DNA of 64,000 bases from Novosphingobium indicum (GTDB taxonomy: Bacteria; Pseudomonadota; Alphaproteobacteria; Sphingomonadales; Sphingomonadaceae), in NCBI RefSeq assembly GCF_014645195.1, contig NZ_BMLK01000008.1:62001-126000 (forward strand). The letters run 5' to 3'. A program made the translations under genes and the position numbers. Positions within the stretch are counted from its first letter, which is position 1. Every line of letters starts with the position of its first letter. The notes beneath the pieces are model-generated. The model was given only the letters and a program-made list of their open reading frames with translations. It was not told the origin of the DNA and ran no database searches. Of the stretch, positions 40,453 to 56,990 are shown piece after piece.

Positions 40453-41256
40453 TCAATCGAAGCCGGGCACGATCGCTCGCCAGGTGCAGTGGCAATTTAT
40501 GGCTTGTCCGGGCAGCACCTTGCCGAACCCGTCGCCAAAGTCGTGACCCTCCGACAGCTTGAAGCGCTTGCCGGAAAACGCCTTGTGCGCGGGCCGTGGA
40601 TGTCTGCCCGCGCCGCTGTGGACCCACTCGCCTTCGGTGATGCCGAGTTCGCGCTCGCGAACGCTGCGCATGGTCGAAGTGGCCATGTTGTTCTGATGCA
40701 GGGCGATGTTGGCCGCCCGGCGCTTGGAGATGCCCGTCTGCTTGGTGAGCTCGCTCGTGAGCGTCTTGAGGTCGCGGCCACGGCTGACCGACTGCATGAC
40801 CAGCGTCTCGACCTTGGAGAGGTGCTGCTCCGCGACCGAGCGTATCAGGCCGACATTCTCAGCCCGGATCGCGGCATAGGCATCGCGCATCGGCTTGGTC
40901 ATCTTGAAGCGCACCGAGAAGCCACCCTTTCGCAGGTCTGCCTGCAGGGTGCGGTCGCAACGGGCGAACACCGCCTTGGCGAAGTAGTCGGCGAGGTTTT
41001 CGGACAGTTCGTCGAAGCGCTTGAGCCATGATCGCGACAGCTGGTTCATGACCTTCTGCATCGCGGATGCCGAGGTCTCATCCTCACCGAACATGACCGT
41101 CTCGGGCGTGTTGCGGCGCCACTCGGCGGCAATCTCGCGCGCAATGCTGCGGTGCATTTGATCCACGGCCGCCTTGAGCCGGGCCTCGTACTTCTCGCGG
41201 ATCGGGGCTGCGGGGCGAATTGGCCGCAGGGTGAGGGGTTTGCCGCGGCGGGGCAT
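40453..41256 (-). CDS. Phage head morphogenesis (minor head, SPP1 gp7/Mu F-like) protein
   Basis: A 267-residue protein following the portal gene with a 1-bp overlap. The C-terminal domain has ISKRRAANIALHQNNMATST, EWVHSGAGRHPRPAHKAFSG and GQAINCHCTWRAIVP, the signature of the Mu F-like head morphogenesis family (RAxxIA-x-T and CRC-type ending). It is needed in small numbers for capsid assembly and DNA injection in related phages. Confidence 0.85.
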   Translation of the reverse strand: MPRRGKPLTLRPIRPAAPIREKYEARLKAAVDQMHRSIAREIAAEWRRNTPETVMFGEDETSASAMQKVMNQLSRSWLKRFDELSENLADYFAKAVFARCDRTLQADLRKGGFSVRFKMTKPMRDAYAAIRAENVGLIRSVAEQHLSKVETLVMQSVSRGRDLKTLTSELTKQTGISKRRAANIALHQNNMATSTMRSVRERELGITEGEWVHSGAGRHPRPAHKAFSGKRFKLSEGHDFGDGFGKVLPGQAINCHCTWRAIVPGFD

Positions 41257-43154
41257 CAGAGCGCCTTGAGCGTGGCTGCCACTCCGGGGTGCAGGGGGCC
41301 GGGCACGTCGAGCGGATGAGCCCAGACCGCGTCGTCATGCTCGCCGTTCAGTTCCGGATCGAAGGGGGCGGGCAGGTCGGCACGGTAGGTGACGAAACCA
41401 TCGCGAATGTCGACAGGGTTGCCGAGCAGGACATCGTCGAACCCCGTCTCCTCGCGCAACTCGCGCATCGCCGCCTCGTATGCGTCTTCGCCCTCGTCGA
41501 TACTGCCGCCCGGCCAGCACCACGTTCCCGGGTGCGATGCGGCGTCACCGCTTCGGCGCAGGAAGAGCATCCGGCCATCGGGCAGGGCGCACATAACGCC
41601 GGCGGCATGTGTGGTGCGTTCATCCATTGCGCTGAAGGGATCGCGCTCCTCGCTGGTGCGGCCGCCAGCGTTTGTGTCGATGTCGATATCGTCGACCTCC
41701 GGCTCGGGTGCGGGGCCGGTCAGGTCCACGCCATGATACAGCGACGTCTCATCGTTGCGCAGCCGCTCGCGGACCTCCTCGGCATCGACAACGCCCGCAT
41801 CGATGTAGATGGCATCGGCCTCCGCATCGGACTTGCGGATGTCCGCCTTGTCCTTGTCGCTCATCTCCCAGAGGGATTCGAACTCGAAGGTGATTTCCGG
41901 GTCGATCTTACCCCAAAGGGAAAACTGCACCGCGTCCATGATTGTGAGCATGGGCTCGGCAACGACGCGCTGCAGGTATGCCATGATGCGGTCGTAGAAA
42001 ACGCGGATTTCGCCCTCGGAGGAGGCATTGAGGCCAGATGGCGTGATCCCGAGCAGGATGACGAGCGGAATGCCCGAGACGCTGGACATGTGCTCCTGCG
42101 ACTGCGCCTGCAACTCGTGCAGACCGGCAATCGGTGCGGAGACGTTCTCGAACTCTTCGGAGTTTTTGTCGACGACGAAGGTGCCGCGGTTGTCGCGCAT
42201 CTTGTTGAACAGATCGATGCGCGTGAACAGATTGTCGCCCGGGCCGCCCTGCAGGACCTGGCCCATGTCTGTCTTGAGCACCATGACCGAGAAGGCATGC
42301 ACGAGGTCGGACACGTCCTGCCGGGTGCGCAGCCAGTTGTCGACATAGGGCTTGCAGAGCTGGGTCAGGGCGAGGCCGCCGAAGGCATAGGCGGGCTTGA
42401 GCATGTTCGGGACGGAATGGCCCACGAGGGTCAGCATGCGGCTCGCATGTACCGTGCGCCCCGACACATACCAGGTCGATGGCTTGTAGAAGCTCGGCGC
42501 GAGCGGGTTCTGGGCGTTGTACGGGCCGGGGTAGCTCCACATCGGCTCGATCATGCCGATGCGCTTGAGCGGACGGGTCGGGCCGATCTTCTCCGCCTTC
42601 ATGGCAAGCGGCGCGGCCATCTCGATGTCATCGTCCCAATCGCCGAAGTCGAGGAACATCTGCATGCGCCCGAAAAGGCATTCCTTCTCGATGGCTTCCC
42701 GGAACAGGTCGCGCACCTTCAGGTCGTCGAGAGCGGATTCGAGCTCCTTGACCTTCTCGTCGTCGCCCTTGATCCGGATCCACTTGCGCGTGCAGTGCTC
42801 GGCCCAGATCGAGGCGATGGTGCGATATTCGGCGCGCTGGGACAGTTCGGCGAGATAGGGATAGCCGAGGAAACCAAGGCCCTCGTGGAACATCTGCTCC
42901 ATCGCGTAGGCATTGAGCACATCGACCGAGGGCAGGGCCGCGTCGAGCGCCATCCCGGCCGGAAGCACGCCGGGCAGCGGTGCGGGGCGCTGGAACACCT
43001 TATCCGGCATGACAGCCGGGGCGCCGTGGCGCGATGCCTCCCACATCACCGCATTGCTGATACGCATGTCGGGGGCGGGCTCTTCCACGACCGCGACGGG
43101 TGCGGCGGTGCCGTACCAGAACGCGCGCCACGCGGCCTTGATGCGCTCGAACAT
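41256..43154 (-). CDS. DUF1073-type portal protein fused to a Nudix domain
   Basis: A 632-residue protein. Residues about 45-480 match phage portal proteins of the DUF1073 group (SRMLTLVGHSVPNMLKPAYA, VSGIPLVILLGITPSGLNAS, GEIRVFYDRIMAYLQRVVAE). After an acidic linker, residues 515-632 form a Nudix domain with a complete Nudix box at 550-572 (G-x5-E-x7-R-E-L-x-E-E-x-G-F). Nudix enzymes hydrolyse nucleoside diphosphates linked to another group. No stop or frameshift separates the parts. The portal ring would display twelve enzyme domains; whether they act on nucleotides, ADP-ribose-like signals or nothing is unknown. Confidence 0.88.
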   Translation of the reverse strand: MFERIKAAWRAFWYGTAAPVAVVEEPAPDMRISNAVMWEASRHGAPAVMPDKVFQRPAPLPGVLPAGMALDAALPSVDVLNAYAMEQMFHEGLGFLGYPYLAELSQRAEYRTIASIWAEHCTRKWIRIKGDDEKVKELESALDDLKVRDLFREAIEKECLFGRMQMFLDFGDWDDDIEMAAPLAMKAEKIGPTRPLKRIGMIEPMWSYPGPYNAQNPLAPSFYKPSTWYVSGRTVHASRMLTLVGHSVPNMLKPAYAFGGLALTQLCKPYVDNWLRTRQDVSDLVHAFSVMVLKTDMGQVLQGGPGDNLFTRIDLFNKMRDNRGTFVVDKNSEEFENVSAPIAGLHELQAQSQEHMSSVSGIPLVILLGITPSGLNASSEGEIRVFYDRIMAYLQRVVAEPMLTIMDAVQFSLWGKIDPEITFEFESLWEMSDKDKADIRKSDAEADAIYIDAGVVDAEEVRERLRNDETSLYHGVDLTGPAPEPEVDDIDIDTNAGGRTSEERDPFSAMDERTTHAAGVMCALPDGRMLFLRRSGDAASHPGTWCWPGGSIDEGEDAYEAAMRELREETGFDDVLLGNPVDIRDGFVTYRADLPAPFDPELNGEHDDAVWAHPLDVPGPLHPGVAATLKAL

Positions 43155-43517: not shown

Positions 43518-44961
43518 TCTTCATCGCCCGCGCGCCGGGTAGCTGCGACATCACGAACGCATCGGCCAGGTTTGGCGAGGGGCGCGGGCCGCCTTCGCGG
43601 TTCGGCTTGGCGAGGTCCTTCTTGCTCTCGACCTTCACCCGCCCCGCATTGTCGAAGTCGCGCTTCGGCGTGCACAGTTCGTCGATCAGCTTCGACAGGT
43701 TCGCCATATCGCCATCGATGAACAGGAGCTCGCCCTGATCGATCTGGCACGGATCGGGCCCCGCGTTCTTCACCGCGTTGTACGTGTTGCGGGCACGGTC
43801 GGCCACACCCCACCATGCCTGCGCCTTGATGTTCGAGAACATGTCCTTGTTCGTGCGCGGCGGGTGTGAGCGAGCGTAGACCGCATCGGGCTTGTCCACT
43901 GCGCCGCCTGCGTTGAAGCCGGTGTGCCTGACATGGAACTTGCGGTGCGCCTCGTGCTGGGCCGCGTTCAGTTCGTTGATCTTCGCGCCGACACCAGCGC
44001 CCACGCCGATGCTGTCGTACACGAGATCGGCCTCGTTCTCCTGACACAGGTTCCACGCCCGCGTTGCCGACTTGAGGAGTTCGTCCTCACCGCCCTTCCA
44101 CAGATCGGACTGCATGGCGAGCGATCCGTGGGAGAGGATGAGCGCGTTGCGGTCGGGGCCATCGTCGGCCACGTCGAACCCGACGCGCCTGCTCCCGGCC
44201 GGTTCGATCCGCAGCACCTTGTGCGCATCAATGCAGGCCATGATCCAAGAGCGCTTGATGACAACCGCGTCGTCGTCGTCACGCGGCACGCCGAGGTAGA
44301 TGTGCTCGAACTCCTCCTCGTCCTCGGCGCGGGCCGCCGCGATCACGTCGAGCATGGTCTGCGAGAGGAAGGGGTTCTCGGTATAGTTGATCAGCCGCTT
44401 GATCGTGCCCGGTGGCGGGTTCACCACGAACCGGCGCCAGGCGAAGTCCGTGGACAGCATCGGGTTGAAGATGACCCAGAACTGCGAGCCCTCCTTGCGG
44501 ACGGTCGGTTCCAGCACCTTCCACTGCTCCTCGGTCAGCGCGTGCGCTTCTTCGAGCCAGCAGATATCAATGCCCTCAAGCGACTTGATCTCGTTGATGT
44601 GCCGCCACAGGCCGTAGAACAGGAACTCGCTGCCCGTGCGCTTGTGGATGATGCGGTTGTCGAGGATCCTGAACTGGTCGCGCAGCCCGAAGCGATCGAT
44701 CTGCACCACGAGCAGGGCGTAGACGGATTCGTCGATCTTGTTCTGGAACTGGCGGGCGCAGAGCACGCGCACCTTGACGTTGCAGGCGAGGAAGATCGCG
44801 AAGCCTGCCGCGTCCCATGACTTCGACGATGCACGGCCGCCGTAGAGCACGCGGTTGCGGATCGGCTCGTTGCGTTCGTTTGTTGCCGCGAGCCAGAAGG
44901 GTTGCAGGACGGGATTGAGCGTCGGGCCGCCGTTGTGGCCGATGCCGGGGAGGGTGGTCAC
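43489..44961 (-). CDS. terL: Terminase large subunit (PBSX/Terminase_3-like)
   Basis: A 490-residue DNA-packaging motor. The ATPase has a Walker A-like VLYGGRASSKSWD (residues about 39-51) and Walker B IDICWLEEAH. The nuclease domain has GFDVADDGPDRNALIL and YDSIGVGAG, with the acidic residues expected of an RNase H-like fold. Length and motif order fit PBSX-type TerL. It lies downstream of TerS with one small gene between. Confidence 0.9.
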   Translation of the reverse strand: MTTLPGIGHNGGPTLNPVLQPFWLAATNERNEPIRNRVLYGGRASSKSWDAAGFAIFLACNVKVRVLCARQFQNKIDESVYALLVVQIDRFGLRDQFRILDNRIIHKRTGSEFLFYGLWRHINEIKSLEGIDICWLEEAHALTEEQWKVLEPTVRKEGSQFWVIFNPMLSTDFAWRRFVVNPPPGTIKRLINYTENPFLSQTMLDVIAAARAEDEEEFEHIYLGVPRDDDDAVVIKRSWIMACIDAHKVLRIEPAGSRRVGFDVADDGPDRNALILSHGSLAMQSDLWKGGEDELLKSATRAWNLCQENEADLVYDSIGVGAGVGAKINELNAAQHEAHRKFHVRHTGFNAGGAVDKPDAVYARSHPPRTNKDMFSNIKAQAWWGVADRARNTYNAVKNAGPDPCQIDQGELLFIDGDMANLSKLIDELCTPKRDFDNAGRVKVESKKDLAKPNREGGPRPSPNLADAFVMSQLPGARAMKINPEVLRAA

Positions 44962-45269
44962 GGGCTTCGCTGATCTTCCGGAAGGGCGTTCCTCGCTACG
45001 GTGCGGATCGTGTCATAATTTGCCTGCCAAGGCAGGTCGCCGAGGCTGCCTTCGGCGATGGAACGCAGTGCCTTATGAGCATCAGCGAGACGCTCGCGCA
45101 ATTTCGCGATCTCGTTCACCTCTCCAGTCACGATCTCCCGAGCGTGATCGATGTCATAACTGCTGACTGGCGTCGTTTGCCCGCCGCGCCTGAGAGCAAG
45201 AGCCAATGCCTTCTCTTTGACCACGGGGTCCAAGTGCTGATCGTCACCGTCAAAGAAATGGTCGGTCAC
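44958..45269 (-). CDS. Hypothetical protein between terminase subunits
   Basis: A 103-residue, charged, mostly helical protein (DIDHAREIVTGEVNEIAKLR ERLADAHKALRSIAEG region). It overlaps both terminase genes by 4 bp, so it is translationally coupled to both. It may be a packaging accessory protein, but no family was recognised. Confidence 0.6.
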   Translation of the reverse strand: MTDHFFDGDDQHLDPVVKEKALALALRRGGQTTPVSSYDIDHAREIVTGEVNEIAKLRERLADAHKALRSIAEGSLGDLPWQANYDTIRTVARNALPEDQRSP

Positions 45270-45808
45270 CCGTCCCTCCCTTCATCGGCTTTGCCCATCC
45301 CGCCGTAGAAGTCCTTCAAGCTCGGCGGGGACATGCTGCCGTCGCTGGATCGGTGGTCGAGGTTCTCCTTGAAGGCGTTCACGTCGACATGCTTGCCGAT
45401 GAGCTCGAGCCGCTTCACGCGGTCGGACAGCTTGAGCTTGCGCACATTGCCGATGGTCACGCCCTCGACGCGGATTTCCTCGACGTCGATCCCGGCAACG
45501 AGGCCTTGCCGCCAGATCAGCGGCCATTCTCCGATCGGCTTGAGCGTACCCTCCGCATCGTACAGATCGCCGAGGTCCGCCTCTGCTTCCATCGCGAGGC
45601 GCCGGAGCACCCATTCGGCGTCGATAGCGGTGCGCTCGGAGCGTTCGGCTTGGGCCGCTGCAACGGCGTCCAGAACCTTGGCATTCCTCAACAGGCGCGA
45701 TGCCTGGGATTCTGCAGTGCGCGCGCTGTAGCCCGCCCGGATCGCTGCCTGCGTTCCGTTCAGGTCGACGAGGTATTCCTCGACAAAGCGCTGCTGTTTC
45801 GGCGTCAT
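45266..45808 (-). CDS. terS: Terminase small subunit
   Basis: A 180-residue protein with the Terminase_2 N-terminus: TPKQQRFVEEYLVDLNGTQA, AIRAGYSARTAESQASRLLR and a helix-turn-helix for pac/cos DNA. The C-terminal part ends in a polar tail (SPPSLKDFYGGMG). It recognises phage DNA for packaging and hands it to TerL. Confidence 0.87.
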   Translation of the reverse strand: MTPKQQRFVEEYLVDLNGTQAAIRAGYSARTAESQASRLLRNAKVLDAVAAAQAERSERTAIDAEWVLRRLAMEAEADLGDLYDAEGTLKPIGEWPLIWRQGLVAGIDVEEIRVEGVTIGNVRKLKLSDRVKRLELIGKHVDVNAFKENLDHRSSDGSMSPPSLKDFYGGMGKADEGRDG

Positions 45809-45823
45809 AATCTCAGCCTATCC

Positions 45824-46333
45824 TCAAACGTCGAACGGCTCGAAACCGAGGCGCTTGGCCCGGCTCACAATCTGGTCATCGCTCAGGATCGAGAAGTTGC
45901 GTTTCCAGTGCGTGCCCTTCGCATTGGGCTTGCCGCTGGCATCGCAGCGGTAGACCGAACCGTAGTGCCGCAGGAACTCGGCCGCCTGTCCCGCCAGCGT
46001 GAAGTCGCGGTTGGTCATGAGTGGGCGCTCCACGAAACCGCGTGTCCGGAACGTGCCGCCGCCCGAGAAGCTGGGCCGCTTGGCGCGCTCGTGCTTCACC
46101 ATGCCCATTTCACGGCGCCAGCGCGTCACGGTGCTGAGCGAGGTGTGGTAGTGCCGGGCCGCGCCCTGCGATCCCATGACCCGCACGACCTTCGCGAAGT
46201 CGTCGGGGGCCTCGCGCTTCAACCCCTTGTATCCGCAGGACCTGCACCGACCGCGAGAATACGGGCTGATCGGCGTGCCGCAATCGACGCAGTGGTGCCC
46301 CCGAAAGCTGGCCGGCGGTGTGGTCTCTTTCAT
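45824..46333 (-). CDS. Zinc-ribbon and helix-turn-helix DNA-binding protein
   Basis: A 169-residue protein. The N-terminal Cys-x2-Cys...Cys-x2-Cys (HCVDCGTPI, RCRSCGYKG) fits a zinc ribbon. A homeodomain-like HTH follows (SQGAARHYHTSLSTVTRWRR). The C-terminal part (NFSILSDDQIVSRAKRLGF) may bind DNA too. The ATG at 46333 has AGGGGAG eight bases upstream. Position before terS suggests control of late genes or packaging. Confidence 0.68.
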   Translation of the reverse strand: MKETTPPASFRGHHCVDCGTPISPYSRGRCRSCGYKGLKREAPDDFAKVVRVMGSQGAARHYHTSLSTVTRWRREMGMVKHERAKRPSFSGGGTFRTRGFVERPLMTNRDFTLAGQAAEFLRHYGSVYRCDASGKPNAKGTHWKRNFSILSDDQIVSRAKRLGFEPFDV

Positions 46334-46357
46334 GGCTATGGCTCCCCTTGCGTACAT

Positions 46358-46657
46358 TCAGCCCCTCTTGCTCCAGTTTGCGATGATCTCGGCCCGCACG
46401 CGCTGGCGGTAGCGATGCGCTTCGGAGCTCAGCTTGCGGATATTCATGTGCGACGGCAGGACCGTCACGACGTTGCCGTCCTCGACCGCGATGCGATTGC
46501 CGCTGGCGAGGCGGATGTAGATCGAGCCGCGCGGCGCGAAGTCGACCGCTGCTGTCACCGCCGCGCTCTTGAGCAGAGCGAGCGCCTGCGCCTCGGACTT
46601 GAGGCCAGGGATCCGTTCCATGGCGCGGGCGATGGCATGGGCGGTGACACGGATCAT
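46358..46657 (-). CDS. Hypothetical phage protein
   Basis: A 99-residue protein starting MIRVTAHAIARAMERIPGLK. Residues 35-70 are beta-rich (FAPRGSIYIRLASGNRIAVE). The layout (HAxxRxxERxP, then V-DG--V-TVLP) resembles small DUF4258/RelE-like RNA-binding folds, but no antitoxin is adjacent. It is coupled to its upstream neighbour by a 1-bp overlap. Confidence 0.6.
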   Translation of the reverse strand: MIRVTAHAIARAMERIPGLKSEAQALALLKSAAVTAAVDFAPRGSIYIRLASGNRIAVEDGNVVTVLPSHMNIRKLSSEAHRYRQRVRAEIIANWSKRG

Positions 46658-46857
46658 TACAGCCCCGCCTCCTGCAGCGCGTTCTCGATCAGGTCCCGGT
46701 GCAGGTCCGTGAACCGGCCCTCCCTGATCCCGGCCCTGAGCTCGACGCGGGTGAACGCGCAGCGGCCTTCGCGGGCGTTCTGGATCAGGCCGAGGACGGT
46801 GCCGTTGCCGCCGCGATGATGCGTGGTCGAGGCCGGGGCGAAGAGGTCGGGCGGCAT
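46657..46857 (-). CDS. Small hypothetical protein (66 aa)
   Basis: A 66-residue protein (MPPDLFAPASTTHHRGGNGT and an amphipathic helix FTDLHRDLIENALQEAGL). It is coupled to the gene downstream. The layout (short polar start, two helices) is that of small phage DNA-binding or accessory proteins, but nothing specific was recognised. Confidence 0.5.
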   Translation of the reverse strand: MPPDLFAPASTTHHRGGNGTVLGLIQNAREGRCAFTRVELRAGIREGRFTDLHRDLIENALQEAGL

Positions 46858-46859
46858 GG

Positions 46860-47408
46860 TCAGATGTTCCCGCCGGTGCGGCGAACATGCTCGTTGAACT
46901 CGTGCTGGGACCAGCCCTCCGAGACGAAGCGCGACACACGGATGTTGATGTCCTCGACCTCGCCCGGTTCCGGCTTCCAGTATCCGGACCGCTCCCCGGC
47001 ATCGGTGCGGCGGGCTTCCTCGGCGCGCCAGCCTTCGAGCCGCTCGACGTAGCGCTGGCGCGAGCCGTCAGGCATGTGGCGAACCGCGATGCGGAAGAAC
47101 CAATCCATGCCCTTGGCGCGAGCCTCTCGGTTGCCATCCTCGACCATCCGCTCGAGGTCGCAGAATGCGCCGGGTGCTTGGGCAGCCTGCATGTCCTCGA
47201 TGATGGCGTGCAACTCGCTGGCCTTGGGCAGGTACGGCTTGACGTGAACCCAGCGCTCGATCGCGCGGGCCAGCAGGTCGGGATTGGCTTCGGCCATGTC
47301 CTCGGAGAGCAAGGCGATGCGTGCGCCATGGGCCTGCAGGTCAGCTTGACGGGAGGGCTCGTAGCGAAGACCGAGGCTGCCAATCAGCGTCCGAATCTGC
47401 GGTGGCAC
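46860..47408 (-). CDS. Hypothetical replication-region protein
   Basis: A 182-residue helical protein if started at the GTG at 47408, which has AGGA six bases upstream. The open frame continues to 47513 but that part reads as an out-of-frame copy of the upstream gene. It contains ALLSEDMAEANPDLLARAIE and RWVHVKPYLPKASELHAIIE, a pattern common in unnamed phage proteins next to replication genes. It overlaps the origin-bearing gene by 68 bp. Confidence 0.6.
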   Translation of the reverse strand: MPPQIRTLIGSLGLRYEPSRQADLQAHGARIALLSEDMAEANPDLLARAIERWVHVKPYLPKASELHAIIEDMQAAQAPGAFCDLERMVEDGNREARAKGMDWFFRIAVRHMPDGSRQRYVERLEGWRAEEARRTDAGERSGYWKPEPGEVEDINIRVSRFVSEGWSQHEFNEHVRRTGGNI

Positions 47409-48081
47409 GGATTTCCTGCTCGGCGGCGAGGAACATGTCGAGGCAGGGATTTGGCCGCTCGCCACGCGGGCCGGCAGATCGTGAAACGGGCTGTTGCTGA
47501 GACTGTCGGTCATTTCGGGTTTCTCTCGGGTCGTAGGCTCCGCCCCATCCTCGGGCGACGATGGCTTCCAGCAGGCGGCCGGGTGGCCATTCGTCGTCGA
47601 CCATGGCCATCAGGTCCCGGATGAACTTGGTGTGCGCCGTGGCGGTGTTGGTCAGCCGCTTGGACTTCCGGTTTTTCAGGAGATCGGACCACACTGCCGG
47701 GTCTGCCCACTCCGGACGAGGGAACGGGTCGGCCTTACGCGTGCGCGGGGATTCACATTCCGGGTGGGTATGGGTGGGGGGGTTAGAATTATTTTCATTG
47801 GGGGGGCGGGAAAGGGAGGGCTGATCGGGACAGTCCCCGGACGGTCCCGGTACTGTCCCGTCTGTGTCCCGGGACGGTCCCGGGACATCATCGGATTTGT
47901 CCCGGGACATCGAGCGCTGGCGGCGCTTCTTGTCCCGGGCGGCCGTGCGCTTCGCCTCGAGCTCTTCCAAGGCCATGCCTGCGCGTTGCTCGGCTTCTTC
48001 GATGGCCCGAACGGCGATGAGGATTGCCTCCATGGGCGCGCCCGCATCGCTCATGGCCTGCATGAGTTCCGACACCTTCAC
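47341..48081 (-). CDS. Putative phage replication protein carrying the origin-like array
   Basis: A 246-residue protein started by GTG at 48081, overlapping the VRR-NUC stop as GTGA. The N-terminal part is helical (MEAILIAVRAIEEAEQRAGM), followed by a basic RDKKRRQR stretch. Residues about 48-100 are low-complexity (DVPGPSRDTDGTVPGPSG), encoded by the phased GTCCCGGGAC array. The C-terminal part (LTNTATAHTKFIRDLMAMVD, LLEAIVARGWGGAYDP) resembles the end of phage replisome-organiser proteins. By position and by the DNA array inside it, a lambda O-like role is proposed. Confidence 0.65.
   Translation of the reverse strand: MKVSELMQAMSDAGAPMEAILIAVRAIEEAEQRAGMALEELEAKRTAARDKKRRQRSMSRDKSDDVPGPSRDTDGTVPGPSGDCPDQPSLSRPPNENNSNPPTHTHPECESPRTRKADPFPRPEWADPAVWSDLLKNRKSKRLTNTATAHTKFIRDLMAMVDDEWPPGRLLEAIVARGWGGAYDPRETRNDRQSQQQPVSRSAGPRGERPNPCLDMFLAAEQEIRATADSDADWQPRSSLRALPSS
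47783..47941. other. Candidate phage replication origin: AT-rich patch plus 11-bp-phased iterons
   Basis: Sites matching the palindrome GTCCCGGGAC begin at 47833, 47844, 47855, 47866, 47877, 47899 and 47932: intervals of 11, 11, 11, 11, 22 and 33 bp. Three (47866, 47877, 47899) are perfect, two (47833, 47844) differ by one base, and two (47855, 47932) are partial. A half-site lies one step earlier at 47822. Next to them TTAGAATTATTTTCATT (47783-47799, 15 of 17 A/T) stands out in GC-rich DNA between G-runs. Helically phased sites beside an unwinding element inside a replication gene is the lambda-type origin layout. Confidence 0.65.
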
Positions 48082-48521
48082 GACAGCACCCCCGCATCCC
48101 GCAGGATCTGCAACCCGCCCTCGGCGCTGCGCACGACATGGTGCGGCACGCCCATGGCCTCGCACCAGTCGCGGAAGTCCTTCTGCCCCTCCGTCATGCT
48201 GCCGTTCTTCGATTTGAACTCGATGGCGAGCGAGCTGTCGCACATCATGAACAGGTAGTCCGCCGTGCCGGTGATCAGACCCAGCGCACGGGCGAGGGCG
48301 ACCTGTGCGGGCACGATGACCTTGCCTCCGGGCCCCTTGCGCACCATGCCGGCGAGTTCATTCGCCGGGTGGGTGAACACGGCCCGCAACCGCCCCTCCA
48401 GCGCTGCGGCGCGAAGCTCGGTCGCGAACGCCAGGCACTCGCTATCCTCCGGTCCGATCCGGACGGAGCGCGAGAGGCCCCGGTACTGCATCAGGCGCAC
48501 GAGGAAGGCAGGCGTTGGCAT
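48078..48521 (-). CDS. VRR-NUC domain nuclease
   Basis: A 147-residue protein whose second half has the VRR-NUC core: LFMMCDSSLAIEFKSKNGSM with the E-x-K of PD-(D/E)XK nucleases, then EGQKDFRDWCEAMGVPHHVV. The start at 48521 overlaps the upstream stop by one base; the longer frame is not protein-like. Such phage enzymes cut branched DNA in recombination or replication. Confidence 0.85.
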   Translation of the reverse strand: MPTPAFLVRLMQYRGLSRSVRIGPEDSECLAFATELRAAALEGRLRAVFTHPANELAGMVRKGPGGKVIVPAQVALARALGLITGTADYLFMMCDSSLAIEFKSKNGSMTEGQKDFRDWCEAMGVPHHVVRSAEGGLQILRDAGVLS

Positions 48522-49252
48522 CAGGCAGCCGCCCTCAGCGCCGCGAGGAGCGTCTGCGAGCCTTTGCCGATATCGGCGTGGAACCGGTGGGAATCGTCCT
48601 GCTCTTCGCCTTGTGAGGAAAAGTCGTTCCTCGGTTTGATCGACGGTTTGTAAGAGATGGCCGGTGGAGCAATGGGGCGACAAACGAGAAGCTTGCGTTC
48701 GTTCGGCACCGTTTCCGGCGGTGTCGTTTCGGTAGGCGCCTCTTCAATCGGCTTGGTGCGCACGGCATCGAGAAAATCTGCGTAGTCGGGGCGCGATGCC
48801 TCCAGATCACGCGCGCGCCGAATGCTGCTCAGAACGGTCGTATGGTCCTTGCGGCATACCGCTCGGGCTATCTGGGGTTGGCTATGGTAGCACTCCGCCC
48901 CGATCAGGCAGACCGCGTGACGGATCATCACAATGGGGCGCTTGCGCGAAGGCCCCTTGATATCGGCCACCGTGACGTTGGCATGGTAGGCAGCGGCTGC
49001 GAGAATGTCGGCCATTCGGCGCGTCCGGACACGCGGGGGCATGTTGTTCTCGGCGCAGCGGCGCACAGTATAGTCGGACAGGCCTAGCTCACGAGCCACC
49101 TGGGCGACGGGTAGCCCGGCGGAAAGCATCGTCACGATCCTGGCTTCGTTCAACAGCCGATTGACCGTGCGGGCCTCGTTGTGGTGCGTGACGCACAGGC
49201 CCCCTTTCGTTTCCGCCTTGATCGGGCGCCTGCAGATGTCGCAAATCTTCAT
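48521..49252 (-). CDS. DnaA domain IV-containing phage replication protein
   Basis: A 243-residue protein. The N-terminus has Cys/His pairs (CDICRRPI, CVTHH), possibly binding zinc, and an HTH (GLPVAQVARELGLSDYTVRR). Residues about 90-145 match DnaA domain IV, the DnaA-box reader: KRPIVMIRHAVCLIGAECYH, QIARAVCRKDHTTVLSSIRR. It lacks the AAA+ ATPase domain. It may mark the phage origin or copy DnaA binding sites. Confidence 0.78.
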   Translation of the reverse strand: MKICDICRRPIKAETKGGLCVTHHNEARTVNRLLNEARIVTMLSAGLPVAQVARELGLSDYTVRRCAENNMPPRVRTRRMADILAAAAYHANVTVADIKGPSRKRPIVMIRHAVCLIGAECYHSQPQIARAVCRKDHTTVLSSIRRARDLEASRPDYADFLDAVRTKPIEEAPTETTPPETVPNERKLLVCRPIAPPAISYKPSIKPRNDFSSQGEEQDDSHRFHADIGKGSQTLLAALRAAA

Positions 49253-49261
49253 GTACGGGCC

Positions 49262-49495
49262 TCACAGCATCATGAGTTGCGGATCGGGGTTGTTCGCGAT
49301 CCATTCGGTCCGGGCCTCGCGCGCCGTGATGAGCGCTTCGGCGGCCTCAGCGAGTTCGGTCTGGGCCCGGTCGAGGCGTTCGGAGGCTCGGCGCACCCGG
49401 CGTTCAGCGCAGGCGACGATCTCCTCGTGCCGCTCAAGCGTCGGTTCGGCGGCCGTCAGGGCCTTGCGGAGATGGTCCTGATCGTCGGTCAGCAT
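49262..49495 (-). CDS. Small coiled-coil hypothetical protein
   Basis: A 77-residue, almost wholly helical protein (RRVRRASERLDRAQTELAEA) from the ATG at 49495. It lies close behind the HTH gene. No family was recognised; a small DNA-region accessory protein is possible. Confidence 0.5.
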   Translation of the reverse strand: MLTDDQDHLRKALTAAEPTLERHEEIVACAERRVRRASERLDRAQTELAEAAEALITAREARTEWIANNPDPQLMML

Positions 49496-49497
49496 GG

Positions 49498-49947
49498 TCA
49501 AGCCGCCGGGCGAAGTTTGGAAAGCTGCTCCTCGATCGCATCGCGCGCGTTTTCGAGCACGGCGCGGTTGGCGCGGATCATCTCGAGCGGGATTTCGTCG
49601 CTCTTGGTCAGGGCGTCCGAGAGCGTCATTGCCGCCTGCAGCACGCTATGCGCGGCGAGACGGTCATCCACGGATCCGGGGCGGCTCTCGACGCACAGGC
49701 GGTCGAAGTACCCTGTGAACCGTCCGTTCCACTCCCGCTTGCCGCGACCGAAGGTGACGGCGTTCATGGTCGCGGTGCCCTCGGCATATTTCGAGGCCTG
49801 ATCGTCGGAAACGCCGAGGATTGCGCCCACATCGGACCATGTCAGGCCGTCTTCGGCTTTGATCTCGGAGATAGCCCGGCCCAATGCTGCAAGTGCGTTG
49901 GAAGCGGAATAGGCCGGTCGTTTCCCGGCGATTGTCGGGTTAGACAT
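49498..49947 (-). CDS. HTH (XRE-like) regulatory protein
   Basis: A 149-residue protein with an HTH around residues 28-60 (EDGLTWSDVGAILGVSDDQA) and a long helical C-terminal part. The ATG at 49947 overlaps the stop of the 52-residue gene before it. Similar proteins occur in the early regions of alphaproteobacterial prophages. It may control the replication or late operon. Confidence 0.68.
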   Translation of the reverse strand: MSNPTIAGKRPAYSASNALAALGRAISEIKAEDGLTWSDVGAILGVSDDQASKYAEGTATMNAVTFGRGKREWNGRFTGYFDRLCVESRPGSVDDRLAAHSVLQAAMTLSDALTKSDEIPLEMIRANRAVLENARDAIEEQLSKLRPAA

Positions 49948-50098
49948 AGTATATTCCCGTGGTATGAAATTTCTGAAACTCGCCTTGCACCGCAGCATCG
50001 TCGTTCGCGGGATGCGCGCACGCGGTGAAGTGATGGCGCCAGTGGGCCAGTGCTGCAGTGCGGACGATTGCGCGGCGGAAGTCGGCTTTCGTGGCCAT
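49940..50098 (-). CDS. Small hypothetical protein (52 aa)
   Basis: A 52-residue frame starting MATKADFRRAIVRTAALAHW, with GGAGG nine bases upstream of the ATG. Its stop overlaps the start of the next gene. The good ribosome site and coupling support it. Confidence 0.55.
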   Translation of the reverse strand: MATKADFRRAIVRTAALAHWRHHFTACAHPANDDAAVQGEFQKFHTTGIYYV

Positions 50099-50194
50099 CT
50101 ATGCGGCCCTCCGCAGGGCGCAGGCGATCAGCGCGCCCGACAGGACGAGCATCGCAGCAAAGGGGCCGAAGGCTTGGGCGTATTGCTCGAGCAT
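50099..50194 (-). CDS. Small membrane peptide (31 aa)
   Basis: A 31-residue frame, MLEQYAQAFGPFAAMLVLSG and a hydrophobic continuation ending RRAA, forming one membrane helix. GAGG lies nine bases upstream. It lies directly between the GP88-like gene and the 52-residue gene. Confidence 0.5.
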   Translation of the reverse strand: MLEQYAQAFGPFAAMLVLSGALIACALRRAA

Positions 50195-50197
50195 GGC

Positions 50198-50965
50198 CTA
50201 ATGCCTCACGAACTCGACGGGACGGTCGAGCGGCATGGCCCAGCACAACGCACACGTACCGCAGCACCGCTTGCCCTTGGGGTCGGACTGCGCGGGGCAG
50301 ACGACATGCTCGCTGTCCTCGTGCCGGTCGATCACGAGACTGTCCCGGCCCGAGAAGCGGATTGCGCAGCGGCCCGGGTTCTCGGCATTCATGGCCGTCA
50401 CTGCGGCGCCGATGTCGGTTCCGGGCTGGCGCGCCGTGAAGCCGAACACGTGAAGGGCAGGGCACTCGGCGAGCAGGTGGCGCCACAGGTTCGCGTAGGC
50501 CACGCTGTAGAAGTCGCCCAGGATGTGCAGCCGCACAGCGAACCCGCTGGGATGCTTGCGCTCAAGCTCGACGATTTCGTCGATGAGGCGCACCTCGAGG
50601 TCGATGCCGTGCATGTGCCGGCGCGACCAGTTCATGTTCGAGCCGTAGCAAGTGGCCCACTCGCTGCAGCTGCGCGGACAGGTCGCGCGCTCCTCCAGCG
50701 TGAGGGTGTAGAGCGGGAAGCCCTTCCACCGGCCCTTGGTGACCTTCACGCCGATCTTGCGCTGGTTGGTGCCCGAGACGAGCAGGCGCGGGCTGTCGTC
50801 GGGATGGACGACGCGCGAAGGGAAGATGGTGCGGCCCTCGCGCATGGCGGGATGATCCGGCATCAGGGTGATGCGGGCCCCGGTGCCTTTGACCGGCTTG
50901 TTGGCGATGCGGTGGTGCGGGCCTCCGTACTGGATCGCGCGCGGAGTGGGTTGGCGGGCGGTCAT
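50198..50965 (-). CDS. GP88-family (mycobacteriophage gp88-like) protein with cysteine motif
   Basis: A 255-residue protein. The core Cys96-x3-Cys100-x5-Cys106 (ATCPRSCSEWATCYGSNMNW) and RLHILGDFYSVAYANLWRHL match phage GP88 proteins; more cysteines near the end (KRCCGTCALCW) could bind a metal or Fe-S cluster. Function is unknown. It is the second gene of the leftward early operon after the Cro-like gene. Confidence 0.75.
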   Translation of the reverse strand: MTARQPTPRAIQYGGPHHRIANKPVKGTGARITLMPDHPAMREGRTIFPSRVVHPDDSPRLLVSGTNQRKIGVKVTKGRWKGFPLYTLTLEERATCPRSCSEWATCYGSNMNWSRRHMHGIDLEVRLIDEIVELERKHPSGFAVRLHILGDFYSVAYANLWRHLLAECPALHVFGFTARQPGTDIGAAVTAMNAENPGRCAIRFSGRDSLVIDRHEDSEHVVCPAQSDPKGKRCCGTCALCWAMPLDRPVEFVRH

Positions 50966-51174
50966 GCAGCGGCGTCCTGCTGGTCAGGAGACCAGTCTCG
51001 CATCCAGTTGCGAGCCCGCAGTTCAGTTTCCGGCCAGAGCCGTCGACCATTGCGGATGTCGCGCACAAAGTGCGGATCGCTCATCGCTTTTCGGCCAAAC
51101 GTGATCTCAGACATTCCGGCCTCAGCCACAAATGCCTCTATCTCTGCGAGCAGGTCAGGGTGATGCTTGGACAT
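50962..51174 (-). CDS. Cro-like small HTH regulator
   Basis: A 70-residue protein: ITFGRKAMSDPHFVRDIRNG is an HTH-like core as in small phage regulators. It is divergent from the CI-like gene and is the first gene after the leftward early promoter, the position of Cro. The ATG lies only about nine bases from the likely -10 region, so its message may be nearly leaderless. Confidence 0.68.
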   Translation of the reverse strand: MSKHHPDLLAEIEAFVAEAGMSEITFGRKAMSDPHFVRDIRNGRRLWPETELRARNWMRDWSPDQQDAAA

Positions 51175-51182
51175 GACCAAGC

Positions 51183-51236
51183 TTCTAACGTAGGATCAGT
51201 CCTACGGTCAATAGGACAAAGTGGGATAAGTCCTAA
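51183..51236 (-). promoter_or_regulatory. Leftward early promoter with two repressor operators
   Basis: Operator 1 GTAGGATCAGTCCTAC (51190-51205) is a perfect 6-bp inverted repeat with 4-bp spacing. Operator 2 GTGGGATAAGTCCTAA starts 31 bp further, at 51221. On the minus strand TTGACC (51211-51206) abuts operator 1, which therefore fills the promoter spacer; the -10 (about GTTAGAA) is weak. Confidence 0.68.
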
Positions 51237-51273
51237 CCTTCCGCTTGGCGGCGGAAAGTGGGATGCGCCCTAC

Positions 51274-52029
51274 ATGAGCGACGACAGCACGCCTCTGCAG
51301 CGATTCATCCGTCAAGCCGTGGCTTTGATGCCGCAGAAGCGCGACTATTACGACCGAATGTTGCAAGAGAAGCTCGGCACCAAGGGTAAGCCGATCTACG
51401 ATATCGATCGCGGCAAGAGTAAAAACCCCAGCCTGGCTCAACTGAATGCGATCTCCGAGGTATTGGAGCAGCCTAGAGACCTACTGGAGCGCGCGGTGGC
51501 CGGGGAGGACGTTGAGCCGCAAAGCCAATGGTCCGGGGGAGTTTCGGAAAAGAAGGAAGATCTCGACCTCAGAAGCGTCGAGCTTCACGCCTATGCGCTT
51601 GGGCGGGCAAGCGAGACTGAAACCGTAAACATCCAAAAGCTCGACTTATCCCTCTCAATGGGCCCCGGCACTTTGATCGACGAGTGGGTCGAGGCTGAGC
51701 CGGTTTCTTTCGACCTGGCATTCATCCGCGGCATCACCCGCTCGCCGCCCGACCGGCTTAAGCTGGTGACCGGCATCGGTGATAGTATGTATCCCACGCT
51801 CAATTGGGGTGATGTGATCCTGATCGACACCACCGACCGCCAGCTCGCCCGGCAGGACGGCGTCTACTGGATCGACCTCTTCGGCGCCTCCGGTATCAAA
51901 CGCTTGCGAACCGTCGGGCAGGGCAGGGTGCTCGTCATCTCCGACAACCGCGACGTCCCCGATCAGGAAGTCGACGCCGCCGATCTGCGAATTCAGGGAA
52001 GGGCGATCTGGCTGGCAAGGGGGATCTGA
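51274..52029 (+). CDS. CI-like repressor with LexA/S24 peptidase domain
   Basis: A 251-residue repressor. The N-terminal 75 residues hold an HTH (LGTKGKPIYDIDRGKSKNPS, LAQLNAISEVLEQ). The C-terminal S24 domain has Ser in GIGDSMYPTLNWGDVILID and Lys in SGIKRLR, so RecA-triggered self-cleavage is expected. The start at 51274 is preferred; the frame before it covers the operators. It should bind the four operators at 51190-51236 and 54001-54047. Confidence 0.88.
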   Translation: MSDDSTPLQRFIRQAVALMPQKRDYYDRMLQEKLGTKGKPIYDIDRGKSKNPSLAQLNAISEVLEQPRDLLERAVAGEDVEPQSQWSGGVSEKKEDLDLRSVELHAYALGRASETETVNIQKLDLSLSMGPGTLIDEWVEAEPVSFDLAFIRGITRSPPDRLKLVTGIGDSMYPTLNWGDVILIDTTDRQLARQDGVYWIDLFGASGIKRLRTVGQGRVLVISDNRDVPDQEVDAADLRIQGRAIWLARGI

Positions 52030-52033
52030 AGCC

Positions 52034-52342
52034 ATGTCCAAGGATGATTTATACGACCAATTGCGCAGGCAGCAGCTTGAGTTGGCAGTTGCTCAAAAAC
52101 AAATGCACGATAGCTATAAGGAGGCGGTTGAATCGCATTTCTTGGCTGTCGAGAAAGAGATGGCGGTGATTGCTGCGCGCACGTCACTGGGCCTCAGGAA
52201 TGTGGCGTTGGCGATGGATGCTTTGAGGCGCGATGCTCCTGAATTCGACAAGCGTCTCCGTGACATTTTGGAGTCTTCCAACGACTTATGGTCGATGGCT
52301 GAAAGACTGGCCGCCACGGGGGGCGAGAATGGTGGATCTTGA
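52034..52342 (+). CDS. Hypothetical coiled-coil protein downstream of the repressor
   Basis: A 102-residue, helical protein (DDLYDQLRRQQLELAVAQKQ). It follows the CI-like gene by four bases on the same strand, so it should be expressed in the lysogen. The codon use is more AT-rich than that of the structural genes. No family was recognised. Confidence 0.6.
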   Translation: MSKDDLYDQLRRQQLELAVAQKQMHDSYKEAVESHFLAVEKEMAVIAARTSLGLRNVALAMDALRRDAPEFDKRLRDILESSNDLWSMAERLAATGGENGGS

Positions 52343-52637
52343 TCTGAGGTTGCTTCGTGAAGCTTACGACCGGCAAACTGAAGAGTTGCGGCGATTGAAA
52401 AGTGGCGGTGGCGGTGGCACATCCGACGGCATGGAAGGTCGTGTAAATCGTGTTGAAGAACGTCTCGATAGAATCATTGACCGGCTGAGTGCCGTCGAAG
52501 TGTCTATCGCAACGCTGACGGAGCGCGTCGCCCATTTGCCAAGTAAGGGCTTCATTGTGACTGCCATGGGGTCGTCTGTCGCAATCCTCGGCGGCATCGT
52601 GCTCGCCGCGGACCGCTTAAAAGACTTCTTCAATTGA
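52329..52637 (+). CDS. Membrane-anchored coiled-coil protein
   Basis: A 102-residue protein with a coiled coil (GRVNRVEERLDRIIDRLSAV) and a C-terminal membrane helix (FIVTAMGSSVAILGGIVLAA). It overlaps the preceding gene by 14 bp. The XhlA-like layout could suit an inner-membrane exclusion protein; function unproven. Confidence 0.62.
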   Translation: MVDLDLRLLREAYDRQTEELRRLKSGGGGGTSDGMEGRVNRVEERLDRIIDRLSAVEVSIATLTERVAHLPSKGFIVTAMGSSVAILGGIVLAADRLKDFFN

Positions 52638-52740
52638 GCCTTATTCGCTTCACCATTGCCGTCATAGGCTCTAGCCATCAAAACAAATTTGGCCGCGGGT
52701 ATCGCATGCACTGCCGCGCAATCTGGCTGGTGAATGGGAA

Positions 52741-53160
52741 TTGAGCGCCGCAGCAAACCGATGGTTTGACGACGCCTGCAAGCTCAAGGAAGTCGGCGAT
52801 TTTTGTGCGTTAAGAAATGACTGGCGCGGCGCTTACCGTAGCTATGGATCGTCAGTTGAGTACATGCTGAAGGCGTTATATCTTCGCAACACACAGCAAA
52901 GAAGTATGCCTTCACACATGAGAACAGCGGCTTCGCACGATCTGAATTTCGTGGCTCAACAGGCTGGGCTTGGGCAGGCATTAGGGAATTTGAAGGGTGC
53001 CCAGCTCTTTAATTGGCTTACTGTCCGAGACTGGGACCAAGGGCGCAGATATCCGAACCAAGCCTTCCCGGTAAAGGAAGGCAAGGACTTTAGACTTGCA
53101 CTATTGCAGCCTGAATTGGGGATTTGGCAATGGCTATTGAACGAGTGGCACCGGACTTGA
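52741..53160 (+). CDS. HEPN-domain protein
   Basis: A 139-residue helical protein, TTG start at 52741. It has a HEPN-like layout: GDFCALRNDWRGAYRSYGSS then VEYMLKALYLRN, and SHDLNFVAQQAG with the conserved His-x-Leu region. HEPN proteins often are RNA-cutting toxins or nucleotide-transfer partners; a canonical R-x4-6-H was not seen, so activity is uncertain. It is followed, with a 31-bp overlap, by another small gene. Confidence 0.65.
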   Translation: MSAAANRWFDDACKLKEVGDFCALRNDWRGAYRSYGSSVEYMLKALYLRNTQQRSMPSHMRTAASHDLNFVAQQAGLGQALGNLKGAQLFNWLTVRDWDQGRRYPNQAFPVKEGKDFRLALLQPELGIWQWLLNEWHRT

Positions 53161-53588
53161 TTGAGGCTGGTCGCACGCTGCTGGAGCACCTCGATGAGAT
53201 GGGGATCGAGCCCCAGGGCGCGCTTTGGATTCATTTCTACCACCTCAAAGATTGGCGCTACACCGTGGTAACTGATTTTGTTGATGTTATTGGTAGAAGG
53301 AAAACCTATGCGCTGATCTCCAAGGCGCTTTCACAATTCGATCCTATCGACGGACTGAGTTTGGTAGACGTTCACCTGTCGGCGCCGTCTGAAGTGCTGC
53401 CCAAGGTGCTCGGAGGCATATTCCATATCGACGGCGATGGCACGGGTGTGGCTTCTGTGAAGGAATGCACGATCAATGACATGCCGGTGGATGCTGAAAT
53501 CTACAGGCTCAGGCCGGCTCGGGAAATGGCACTAGCGCAAAGAGCCGCGAGGAAGACATTGCGCAAGTTGGAAAAACTCCCCGCCTGA
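53130..53588 (+). CDS. Hypothetical protein coupled to the HEPN gene
   Basis: A 152-residue protein from the ATG at 53130, within the end of the HEPN gene. It has an alpha/beta pattern (ALWIHFYHLKDWRYTVVTDF, LSLVDVHLSAPSEVLPKVLG). It has no recognised family. As a coupled partner of a HEPN protein it may be an antitoxin or co-factor. Confidence 0.55.
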   Translation: MAIERVAPDLIEAGRTLLEHLDEMGIEPQGALWIHFYHLKDWRYTVVTDFVDVIGRRKTYALISKALSQFDPIDGLSLVDVHLSAPSEVLPKVLGGIFHIDGDGTGVASVKECTINDMPVDAEIYRLRPAREMALAQRAARKTLRKLEKLPA

Positions 53589-53591
53589 GCC

Positions 53592-53996
53592 TTGCTCCCA
53601 TTCTCCCTCGCCGTCGTCGGCGCTGACTACCCCAACAAGTCCGGACCCGACCGCCGCTTCGAGATCGCCATGTGCATCCCCGGCGAGCCGGTCGACCTGC
53701 GCCCCGAACCCGACAACGCGGCAGATGAGCGCGCCGTCGCCGTCTACTCCGCGCGCGGCATCCAGATCGGCTACCTCACCGCCGAGCGCGCGCCACGCAT
53801 GGGACAGCTGATCCGCAGCGGGGTCGAGTGGTCTGCCATCTTCCAGGAGCCGGCACCTTACGGCGCGGTCGTGCGCGTCGCCTTTGATGGCGAGCAGCCG
53901 GAACTGCCTCTGCGACGAGAATCGGCTCAGCACGATCTCGATGAGGTTCGCGACTATGATCCGGGCTGGATGCCCGACGAAGAGTGGCCAGACTGA
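53592..53996 (+). CDS. HIRAN-domain protein
   Basis: A 134-residue protein with TTG start at 53592. FSLAVVGADYPNKSGPDRRF, then DLRPEPDNAADERAVAVYSA and GIQIGYLTAERAPR match the HIRAN domain, which recognises damaged or stalled DNA ends. As a stand-alone phage version it may act in DNA-end sensing. It is the last gene before the rightward promoter. Confidence 0.8.
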   Translation: MLPFSLAVVGADYPNKSGPDRRFEIAMCIPGEPVDLRPEPDNAADERAVAVYSARGIQIGYLTAERAPRMGQLIRSGVEWSAIFQEPAPYGAVVRVAFDGEQPELPLRRESAQHDLDEVRDYDPGWMPDEEWPD

Positions 53997-54000
53997 AAAT

Positions 54001-54053
54001 GTGGGACAAGTCCTACTTATTAGATTGACACGTAGGACCAGTCCTACTATTCA
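54001..54053 (+). promoter_or_regulatory. Rightward early promoter with two repressor operators
   Basis: Operator 3 GTGGGACAAGTCCTAC (54001-54016) and operator 4 GTAGGACCAGTCCTAC (54032-54047) are 31 bp apart, as at the leftward promoter. TTGACA at 54025-54030 serves as -35. Operator 4 fills the spacer, and TATTCA at 54048-54053 gives a 17-bp spacing. Confidence 0.75.
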
Positions 54054-54117
54054 GTCTCCAACAGCCCAGCGGTGAGCCGAAAGCGCAGACCCAACGGGCC
54101 CTTCGTTGGAGATCGTC

Positions 54118-54465
54118 ATGGCACACCCCGCCAACATCACCGAAGCCCGCGCGATGCTCGCCCCGTTCGTGGGCGCTCGCCTGAACCGCAGCCGCAACGC
54201 TGACGGCTACCTGATCCCCCGCACCGTATTCGTCGACATCTTCACGCCCGGCGTGGCGTTCGTGGATGCCGATGTGCGCGCCGTGTCGGATGATGGCATC
54301 GAGGTCAGCCGCATGGGCGGGTTCGCCGAGGTCGCGCGCTGGTCCGACGTCGAGGAAATCCGGTTCAGCGGCGAAGGTCGCCCTGATCGTGTGCTCTACT
54401 TCGGCGACGATGAGCCGGAAGGCCGCGCAGCCGAGAGCAACATTCCGATGGGAGCGGCGGCATGA
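54118..54465 (+). CDS. Hypothetical protein, first gene of the rightward early operon
   Basis: A 115-residue protein with GGAG about seven bases upstream of the ATG at 54118. It starts MAHPANITEARAMLAPFVGA and continues with beta strands (RTVFVDIFTPGVAFVDADVR). No family was recognised. Its gene leads the operon directly after the promoter. Confidence 0.62.
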   Translation: MAHPANITEARAMLAPFVGARLNRSRNADGYLIPRTVFVDIFTPGVAFVDADVRAVSDDGIEVSRMGGFAEVARWSDVEEIRFSGEGRPDRVLYFGDDEPEGRAAESNIPMGAAA

Positions 54466-54917: not shown

Positions 54918-55168
54918 TGCCTGCAACCCGCGCCGATGGCCGCCCGGCCTACGTGAACGCTCCGCCCCGCCTGCGCCAGAGCACGGTCAACAGCACCCGT
55001 AGCTACTCGCAAAAGCTGCGCGAAATGCGCTGCGAGGAGGCCCAACTGGCCCGCGAGGCTGGCGAGGATCCGCAGCCGGGCCCCGGCAACGGCACGGCCT
55101 ACGCGATCCTCGGCCTCCTCACGCTCGCCGTGTGGCTCGTCCTCTTCAAGGGCCTCGGCCTGATCTGA
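54917..55168 (+). CDS. Small hypothetical membrane protein
   Basis: An 83-residue protein with a polar, Arg-rich N-terminal part and one C-terminal membrane helix (AILGLLTLAVWLVLFKGLGL). It overlaps the upstream stop by one base. It would face the cytoplasm; role unknown. Confidence 0.55.
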   Translation: MPATRADGRPAYVNAPPRLRQSTVNSTRSYSQKLREMRCEEAQLAREAGEDPQPGPGNGTAYAILGLLTLAVWLVLFKGLGLI

Positions 55169-55219
55169 CCCCCCGCAGCACCGACCGGCTCAGTCCCCCC
55201 TGCCGGATATGCTCAACCA

Positions 55220-55247: not shown

Positions 55248-55262
55248 ACAGGGAATGACGCG

Positions 55263-55991: not shown

Positions 55992-56004
55992 GGAGCCCTG
56001 CACG

Positions 56005-56988: not shown

Positions 56989-56990
56989 TT

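Follow-up and report, generated by a model that had tools for sequence, protein, structure and literature searches.

A candidate phage replication origin built of phased palindromes inside the gene of its putative initiator in Novosphingobium indicum and relatives

Why would a protein-coding gene carry short palindromes at intervals of 11 base pairs (bp), a step that is foreign to the reading frame, and which protein, if any, reads them? The question is raised by a gene in a 64,000-nucleotide stretch of the Novosphingobium indicum genome (RefSeq assembly GCF_014645195.1, contig NZ_BMLK01000008.1, positions 62,001 to 126,000; hereafter, the window, with positions counted from its first letter), in which an earlier note, made from the letters alone, described phased iterons and an A/T patch inside a replication gene and proposed an origin. 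The assignment to replication is borne out by the match of the host gene to the PHROGs family phrog_678, 'replication initiation O-like'; the same protein has no match in Pfam or NCBIfam. We put at roughly 0.7 the probability that this locus is a lambda-type phage replication origin embedded in the coding sequence of the initiator that serves it, a candidate for which origin activity, dimerisation and DNA binding are all inferred. The array, its pitch, the selection acting on the DNA and the covariation of the sites with the N-terminal helices of the protein emerge directly from computation.

In the window gene, the register that includes 47833 was confirmed, with three perfect 10-bp palindromes at 47866, 47877 and 47899 (no mismatches to GTCCCGGGAC), sites with one mismatch each at 47833 and 47844, and a site at 47855 that retains only the left half (four mismatches). 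A right half-site, also with four mismatches, lies at 47822, registers 47888, 47910 and 47921 are empty (no GTCCCGGGAC match within four mismatches), and the site at 47932, with two mismatches, falls within the codons of the basic helix discussed below. The seven starts at multiples of 11 between 47833 and 47932 that had been listed originally are thus all present, but only five of them are near-complete palindromes and the one at 47932 may be a coincidence; the nearby patch with 15 of 17 A/T positions stood on recounting (Table 1). The array yields the highest 11-bp autocorrelation in the entire window (39 of 60 positions, the next best being 31), and TGTCCCGGGAC occurs in the 4.96-Mb genome in the array and in one further place, locus L005 (G000:C19:82897-82907). 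Across the window, GTCCCGGGAC with up to two mismatches is not enriched (37 found vs 52 expected), and Rfam gave no match in 47300-48300. As single-stranded DNA, the array folds better than shuffled sequences (z -4.2) because its units are palindromes. Under synonymous shuffling of this gene only, six sites (at most two mismatches) in one register were reproduced in 17 of 2000 trials, so that under this strict codon null the window by itself is moderate evidence.

The weight of the argument is carried by relatives of the gene. Scans with single proteins detected no relative in viral contigs, genome contigs or plasmids and matched one phage record, and L060 as a single query matched no phage record, so that alignments were required to find the family. 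A search of the genus gave a match in 8 of 149 genomes, the window's own among them, and these eight, together with Pseudanabaena phage Pan3, carry different repeat arrays at the corresponding position; the named relatives comprise two Novosphingobium, a Sphingomonas, Sphingopyxis indica, a Hyphomicrobiaceae metagenome-assembled genome and Pan3. A first set of relatives was reduced from 44 to 38. A 54-position N-terminal profile then retrieved 80 open reading frames (ORFs) at E<=0.01, of which 77 at E<=0.001, leaving 48 after removal of 29 redundant ones; among 51 ORFs of a later set, 49 passed E<=0.001 and the profile end, 16 were non-redundant, and 15 remained without a spurious second hit at L158, for a family of 63 non-redundant genes (48 + 15). 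The Mantel, AT-content, C-run and island analyses cover the 46 of the 48 genes that are long enough. Four relatives with N-termini that read as the winged-helix type (L007, L008, L010 and L013) also have repeats at the same place, in steps of 11-12, 11/33, 17 and ~23 bp.

Selection on the DNA itself was assessed by counting 6-mer pairs in the 48 non-redundant genes against 200 synonymous-codon shuffles, in which protein and codons are kept. Pairs are in large excess at offsets 10 (138 vs 16.6 expected; z 23), 11 (171 vs 19.1; z 25), 20 (79 vs 16.4; z 11) and 22 (153 vs 19.9; z 21), with 138 vs 50.3 at offset 33 and 37 vs 13.7 at offset 44, and 473 of the 532 pairs at offsets 10, 11, 20 and 22 fall inside a ~125-bp zone at the array. 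For 48 control ORFs from the same loci, the counts at these four offsets stay within 1.1 standard deviations of the null (22 vs 16.1 at offset 11). The earlier claim of selection on the DNA, deduced from the 11-bp phase, is thereby extended to the family. The repeats might still be a by-product of a repetitive Pro/Ser/Asp-rich linker combined with biased codons, given that the encoded segment is of low complexity and disordered in the structural model and that peptide motifs such as VTGQSRD recur in it. Steps of 10 and 11 bp, however, cannot originate from protein repeats, the peaks far above the synonymous shuffles refute this explanation as the whole story, and the AT island that follows the array encodes different peptides in its three frames, so that we consider a linker origin of the repeats extremely improbable.

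The phase was to be checked in relatives, and these hold a pitch of either 11 or 10 bp while the letters of the iterons differ. The palindromic GTCNNNNGAC frame is present in many of them, GTC-NNNN-GAC being the form of the palindrome in most relatives with paired sites. The pitch follows the type of the hairpin predicted at the N-terminus of the protein. With gaps above 33 bp excluded, the 23 genes of the first set that have a GAP-type hairpin show 45 of 45 gaps between GTCNNNNGAC-like sites at multiples of 11, while the 10 genes without it show 15 of 15 at multiples of 10. In the later set, where the pattern rule had been fixed beforehand, all 14 gaps in GAP-type genes are multiples of 11 (12 of the 16 genes testable), and of the 11 gaps in the other genes, seven are multiples of 11, three are multiples of 10 and one measures 21 bp. 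All seven trace to three genes whose hairpins read GASPEAI and that were grouped with GAP afterwards by the rest of the helix. Redefining the hairpin type as [ED]AI..A[VIL], a definition set after the data were seen, leaves the counts of the first set as they were and gives 21/22 (multiples of 11) and 3/3 (multiples of 10) in the later one, or 66/67 and 18/18 for the pooled sets; counted per cluster, six of the [ED]AI..A[VIL] type are all 11, seven of the other type are all 10, and eight lack a usable site pair. Hairpin type, as defined post hoc, tracks pitch.

The letters of the iterons change together with the end of the long helix that follows the hairpin. The 13 basic residues encoded directly before the array differ among subgroups, as do the iterons: KRRQR pairs with GTCCCGGGAC or GTCACGGGAC, KRxxR with GTCCNNGGAC, RQxRRR with GTCACGTGAC, QKxxER with GTCGCGCGAC, and GALRxRxxRERH with GCGTCAC-like units. 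In Mantel tests (n=46), iteron similarity correlates with that of the basic helix (0.41, p 0.001) and of the hairpin (0.37, p 0.001), and there is no correlation with the C-terminal module of the same proteins (0.015, p 0.36); the partial coefficients are 0.37, 0.32 and 0.01, respectively. When each of the 15 later genes is paired with the member of the first set whose basic helix is closest to its own, the mean iteron similarity is 0.57 (mean percentile 85), compared to 0.39 for the nearest hairpin (percentile 60), 0.23 for the nearest C-terminus (percentile 43; n=14) and 0.287 for a random partner (maximum 0.437 among 1000 draws). Two natural chimeras, L057 and L084, combine an AGAP hairpin with a RYRE-type basic helix, and their iterons, compared by eye, match the kind of helix. 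At L130 (~2148-2262), GTAACGTTAC-like units in ~11-bp steps accompany the basic helix RTRRHR, such that the outer GTC/GAC letters can change too.

These dependencies bear on the possibility that the array is bound by another protein, a DnaA-like neighbor or a host regulator, with the O-like protein merely hosting it. A suitable neighbor exists: the product of the gene ~440 bp upstream, proposed originally as an equal candidate for the reader, combines HTH_23 and a Cys-containing N-terminus with the DNA-binding domain IV of DnaA, has no ATPase-domain match and, judging by these domains, is a phage-borne partial DnaA. Its homologs are found near only 8 of the 48 loci, the window's own counted (flanks of 1.5-3 kb or less), and the iteron tracks the N-terminal helices of the O-like protein in two gene sets, so the parity of the two candidates was not sustained. 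Nor is there a TTATNCACA match near the array: the window contains nine TTATNCACA-like matches (at most one mismatch), and the interval from 44651 to 61421 is free of them, which sets the site apart from an oriC with DnaA boxes. Binding by another protein accordingly appears improbable.

What kind of domain could the O-like reader be? For the window protein, AlphaFold predicts a short helix, a turn and a single long helix (Table 1), with block means of pLDDT, the model's per-residue confidence, of 90-97 over residues 1-60, and for L065, of the 10-bp class, helices at 2-11 and 16-57 (block means 73, 87, 88, 92, 92 and 66); one continuous long helix is thus predicted in both pitch classes. After it comes a low-confidence, disordered stretch that is encoded by the array and the C-rich tract. 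The hydrophobic residues of the long helix follow heptad steps, and in 34 of the 37 genes with an 11-bp pitch the distance from the start of the profile to the basic end is either 49 or 56 residues, a difference of one heptad, in keeping with an uninterrupted coiled coil that terminates in a basic region. The N-terminal domain of lambda O is a winged helix; both models here show a helix-turn-long helix instead. Eukaryotic bZIP and bHLH proteins combine a long helix, hydrophobic in heptad steps and basic at one end, with a short palindromic site. The family shares these traits, but in this prophage protein, by sequence and models, the presumed dimerisation part comes first and the basic region last, and no bZIP or bHLH match was found in Pfam for the window protein or 33 family members. 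The searches of Pfam, NCBIfam and PDB gave no family or relative for this reader: cortactin was the only match in the PDB sequence search (E 0.045), the L065 model had nothing significant among PDB structures (best E 2.3), and the window model compared with viral protein structures had a single match at E<0.001, besides several weak hits to proteins with replication, HTH or DUF1376 annotations. The reader is probably an undescribed, dimeric domain that, on the predicted fold, resembles a bZIP of reversed polarity. The broader proposal, namely, a new class of prokaryotic DNA-binding domain (hairpin, coiled coil and C-terminal basic region) in which the basic helix sets the letters of the GTC-NNNN-GAC sites and the hairpin sets the 10- or 11-bp pitch, with protein and sites forming a matched pair within ~250 bp, falls a little short of an even chance in our estimation.

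The second part of an origin would be an element that opens. An island such as AATGAAAATAATTCTAA between C runs follows the array in 30 of 46 genes, its start being in frame 0 in 23 genes, in frame 2 in five and in frame 1 in two. Between the island and the nearest site before it lie a median of 42 bp (range 3-92; 33 genes). C-run patterns compatible with a G-quadruplex on the other strand, called by pattern matching, are present in 32 of 46 genes vs 15.7 expected, with a maximum of 24 in 200 shuffles, and the G-rich tracts beside the island may hold the opened strand. The island bears on another alternative, in which the O-like protein reads the sites mainly for autoregulation, partition or copy control while the origin in use lies elsewhere. 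An array inside the initiator gene could indeed titrate or regulate the initiator; the recurrence of the island in three frames, the O-like family of the gene and a layout matching that of ori-lambda (PMC5043065) argue for an origin, and we rate a mainly regulatory role as unlikely.

According to two accounts, the iterons of ori-lambda lie within the O gene, followed by 40 bp of A+T-rich DNA, and are nearly perfect 19-bp inverted repeats bound by O dimers (PMC5043065; PMC7466680), so that the contrast once drawn between a fully palindromic iteron here and that of lambda cannot be maintained. Compared with that description, the array inside the initiator gene, the inverted-repeat iterons and the AT-rich element on the C-terminal side are shared, whereas the units of 10 bp, the 10- or 11-bp steps and the 17-bp island differ from the 19-bp iterons and the 40-bp region. 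The reader, a predicted hairpin plus basic helix, and the packing of one helical turn per unit are also different: the layout is lambda-type, the unit length and the reader domain are not. Iteron plasmids likewise have iterons in helical phase beside an A+T-rich region (PMC5043065). Their iterons are direct repeats with a monomeric Rep, in contrast to the palindromes within an initiator gene seen here, and no Rep family matched in Pfam for the window protein or the 33 members. Mycobacteriophage RepA-like replication initiators resemble the C-terminal parts of L011 and L062 in tblastn searches, but the matches stop short of the N-terminal part; for RepA phages, whose RepA proteins may or may not belong to the present family, the authors of PMC7157519 report that they identified no repeated sequence. 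In a literature search with most subscription journals outside its reach, none of the titles and abstract openings listed dealt with this domain, with a phage origin made of 10/11-bp palindromes or with such covariation.

Taken together, these features suggest a mechanism modelled on ori-lambda (PMC5043065; PMC7466680). The protein, with its predicted N-terminal short helix, turn and long helix with a basic end, would dimerise through the hairpin and the coiled coil, and the dimer would grip each 10-bp palindrome with two basic helices in the manner of bZIP, the basic region being at the opposite end of the coil; the covariation is compatible with such a grip. Dimers would stack on the array, one per turn, in 11-bp steps in this class and in 10-bp steps in the sister class, and the resulting strain would unwind the adjoining AT island. 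The disordered linker would connect the reader to the exchangeable C-terminal module, which would bring in the helicase. The fold of the monomer is a prediction, and the dimer, the binding, the opening and the helicase loading are inferred.

Several observations weigh against this account, in addition to the mixed gaps of the later set. The genes of the family are related and not independent, which bears on all family statistics. The site-based tests cover 34 of the 48 genes (at least two sites; GALR/ARYR-type helices removed), and, taken singly, 32 of the 48 reach p<0.01 for pitch and 16 fall short. Lesser peaks of 6-mer pairs appear elsewhere, for example, at offsets 24 (86 vs 32.1; z 7.9) and 14 (52 vs 16.5; z 6.9). 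When each 60% cluster is represented by a single gene (n=20), the hairpin (0.38, p 0.002) predicts the iteron at least as well as the basic helix (0.30, p 0.014), the C-terminal module giving 0.04 (p 0.33). The islands between C runs are a raw count, AT content taken alone exceeds the codon null weakly (p<0.05 in 17 of 46 genes, p<0.01 in 6 of 46), and the island comes after all site-like matches within 220 bp in 18 of 35 genes and fails to do so in 17. Residue-to-base rules also proved unstable. In the first set, Arg at position -4 accompanies a CG center in 15 of 16 genes, vs 3 of 18 for other residues (p 6e-6), but the same rule, fixed in advance, failed in the later set (5/8 vs 3/4), where Lys occupies the position in three of the four non-Arg genes; in a post hoc count by site, CG is found in 42/47 (first set) and 29/36 (later set) when residue -4 is Arg or Lys, and in 11/49 and 0/2 when it is another residue. 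Similarly, Arg at -5 goes with a GGAC half-site in 19 of 21 genes of the first set, vs 2 of 13 for non-Arg, and the later set shows no clear contrast (4 G and 3 T among the Arg genes, compared with 3 G, 1 T and 1 C among the others). Both rules are leads only.

Beyond the array and its gene, the window encodes small and large terminase subunits, portal, head morphogenesis, head maturation protease and tail sheath proteins, an S24 repressor and an Erf-like protein, and one ORF (41256-43154) combines Phage_portal_3 (residues 99-448) with a NUDIX hydrolase domain (517-625). Among the 33 members mentioned above (set A5, 33 of 37 reference sequences; the phage Pan3 rows were left out for AlphaFold), 16 match phrog_678, 14 phrog_6451 (primosomal protein) and five phrog_10469 (DnaD-like helicase loader). 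The ORF downstream of the O-like gene overlaps its 3' end by 173 bp and occupies the position of lambda P; a homolog is present at 4 of the 48 loci, the window's included. The DnaA-like neighbor was sought in 199 genomes and matched in 25, its own included, the remainder being weak (E 6e-7 to 9e-4) and many of them located in open frames of ~460-630 amino acids, the size expected of DnaA itself; an argument from co-occurrence was dropped for these reasons.

Table 1 Features of the candidate origin and its surroundings, in window coordinates.
Feature	Position	Strand	Basis
O-like initiator gene, 246 amino acids	47341..48081	-	phrog_678 'replication initiation O-like', E 1.5e-13
Codons of predicted hairpin and long helix (residues 3-61)	47899..48075	-	AlphaFold helices 3-12 and 17-61
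Codons of basic region (residues 44-57), proposed recognition helix	47911..47952	-	Covariation of iteron with the last 13 helix residues
Iteron array, 10-bp palindromes in 11-bp register	47822..47908	.	Site scan and family-level codon-null test
Weak seventh site inside basic-helix codons	47932..47941	+	2 mismatches
G-rich tract on non-coding strand, adjoining AT island	47800..47820	+	C-run pattern
AT island, proposed unwinding element	47783..47799	.	15/17 A/T; similar island between C runs in 30/46 relatives
Second G-rich tract, other side of AT island	47762..47782	+	Coding strand reads CCCCCCCACCCATACCCACCC
Codons of the helical module at the C-terminus (residues 128-195), which relatives exchange	47497..47700	-	AlphaFold; no correlation with iteron
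DnaA-domain-IV protein, not a constant partner	48521..49252	-	Bac_DnaA_C, E 3.4e-13; homolog at 8/48 loci
Downstream ORF in the place of the helicase-loader gene	46860..47513	-	No Pfam, PHROGs or NCBIfam family match (E <= 1)

One odd repeat thus leads to a family of 63 genes in which a putative DNA reader and its sites are encoded next to each other and vary in concert, as though initiator and candidate origin evolved as a single matched cassette. If the reversed-bZIP interpretation is true, the family would represent a mode of reading DNA without a family or relative in the Pfam, NCBIfam and PDB searches, each phage would hold a matched pair of reader and site, and the family as a whole would be a natural mutational series for a protein-DNA recognition code. 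Initiator-origin co-evolution and the switching of replication specificity in phages become testable by swaps of a 13-residue helix or of ~100 bp of DNA.
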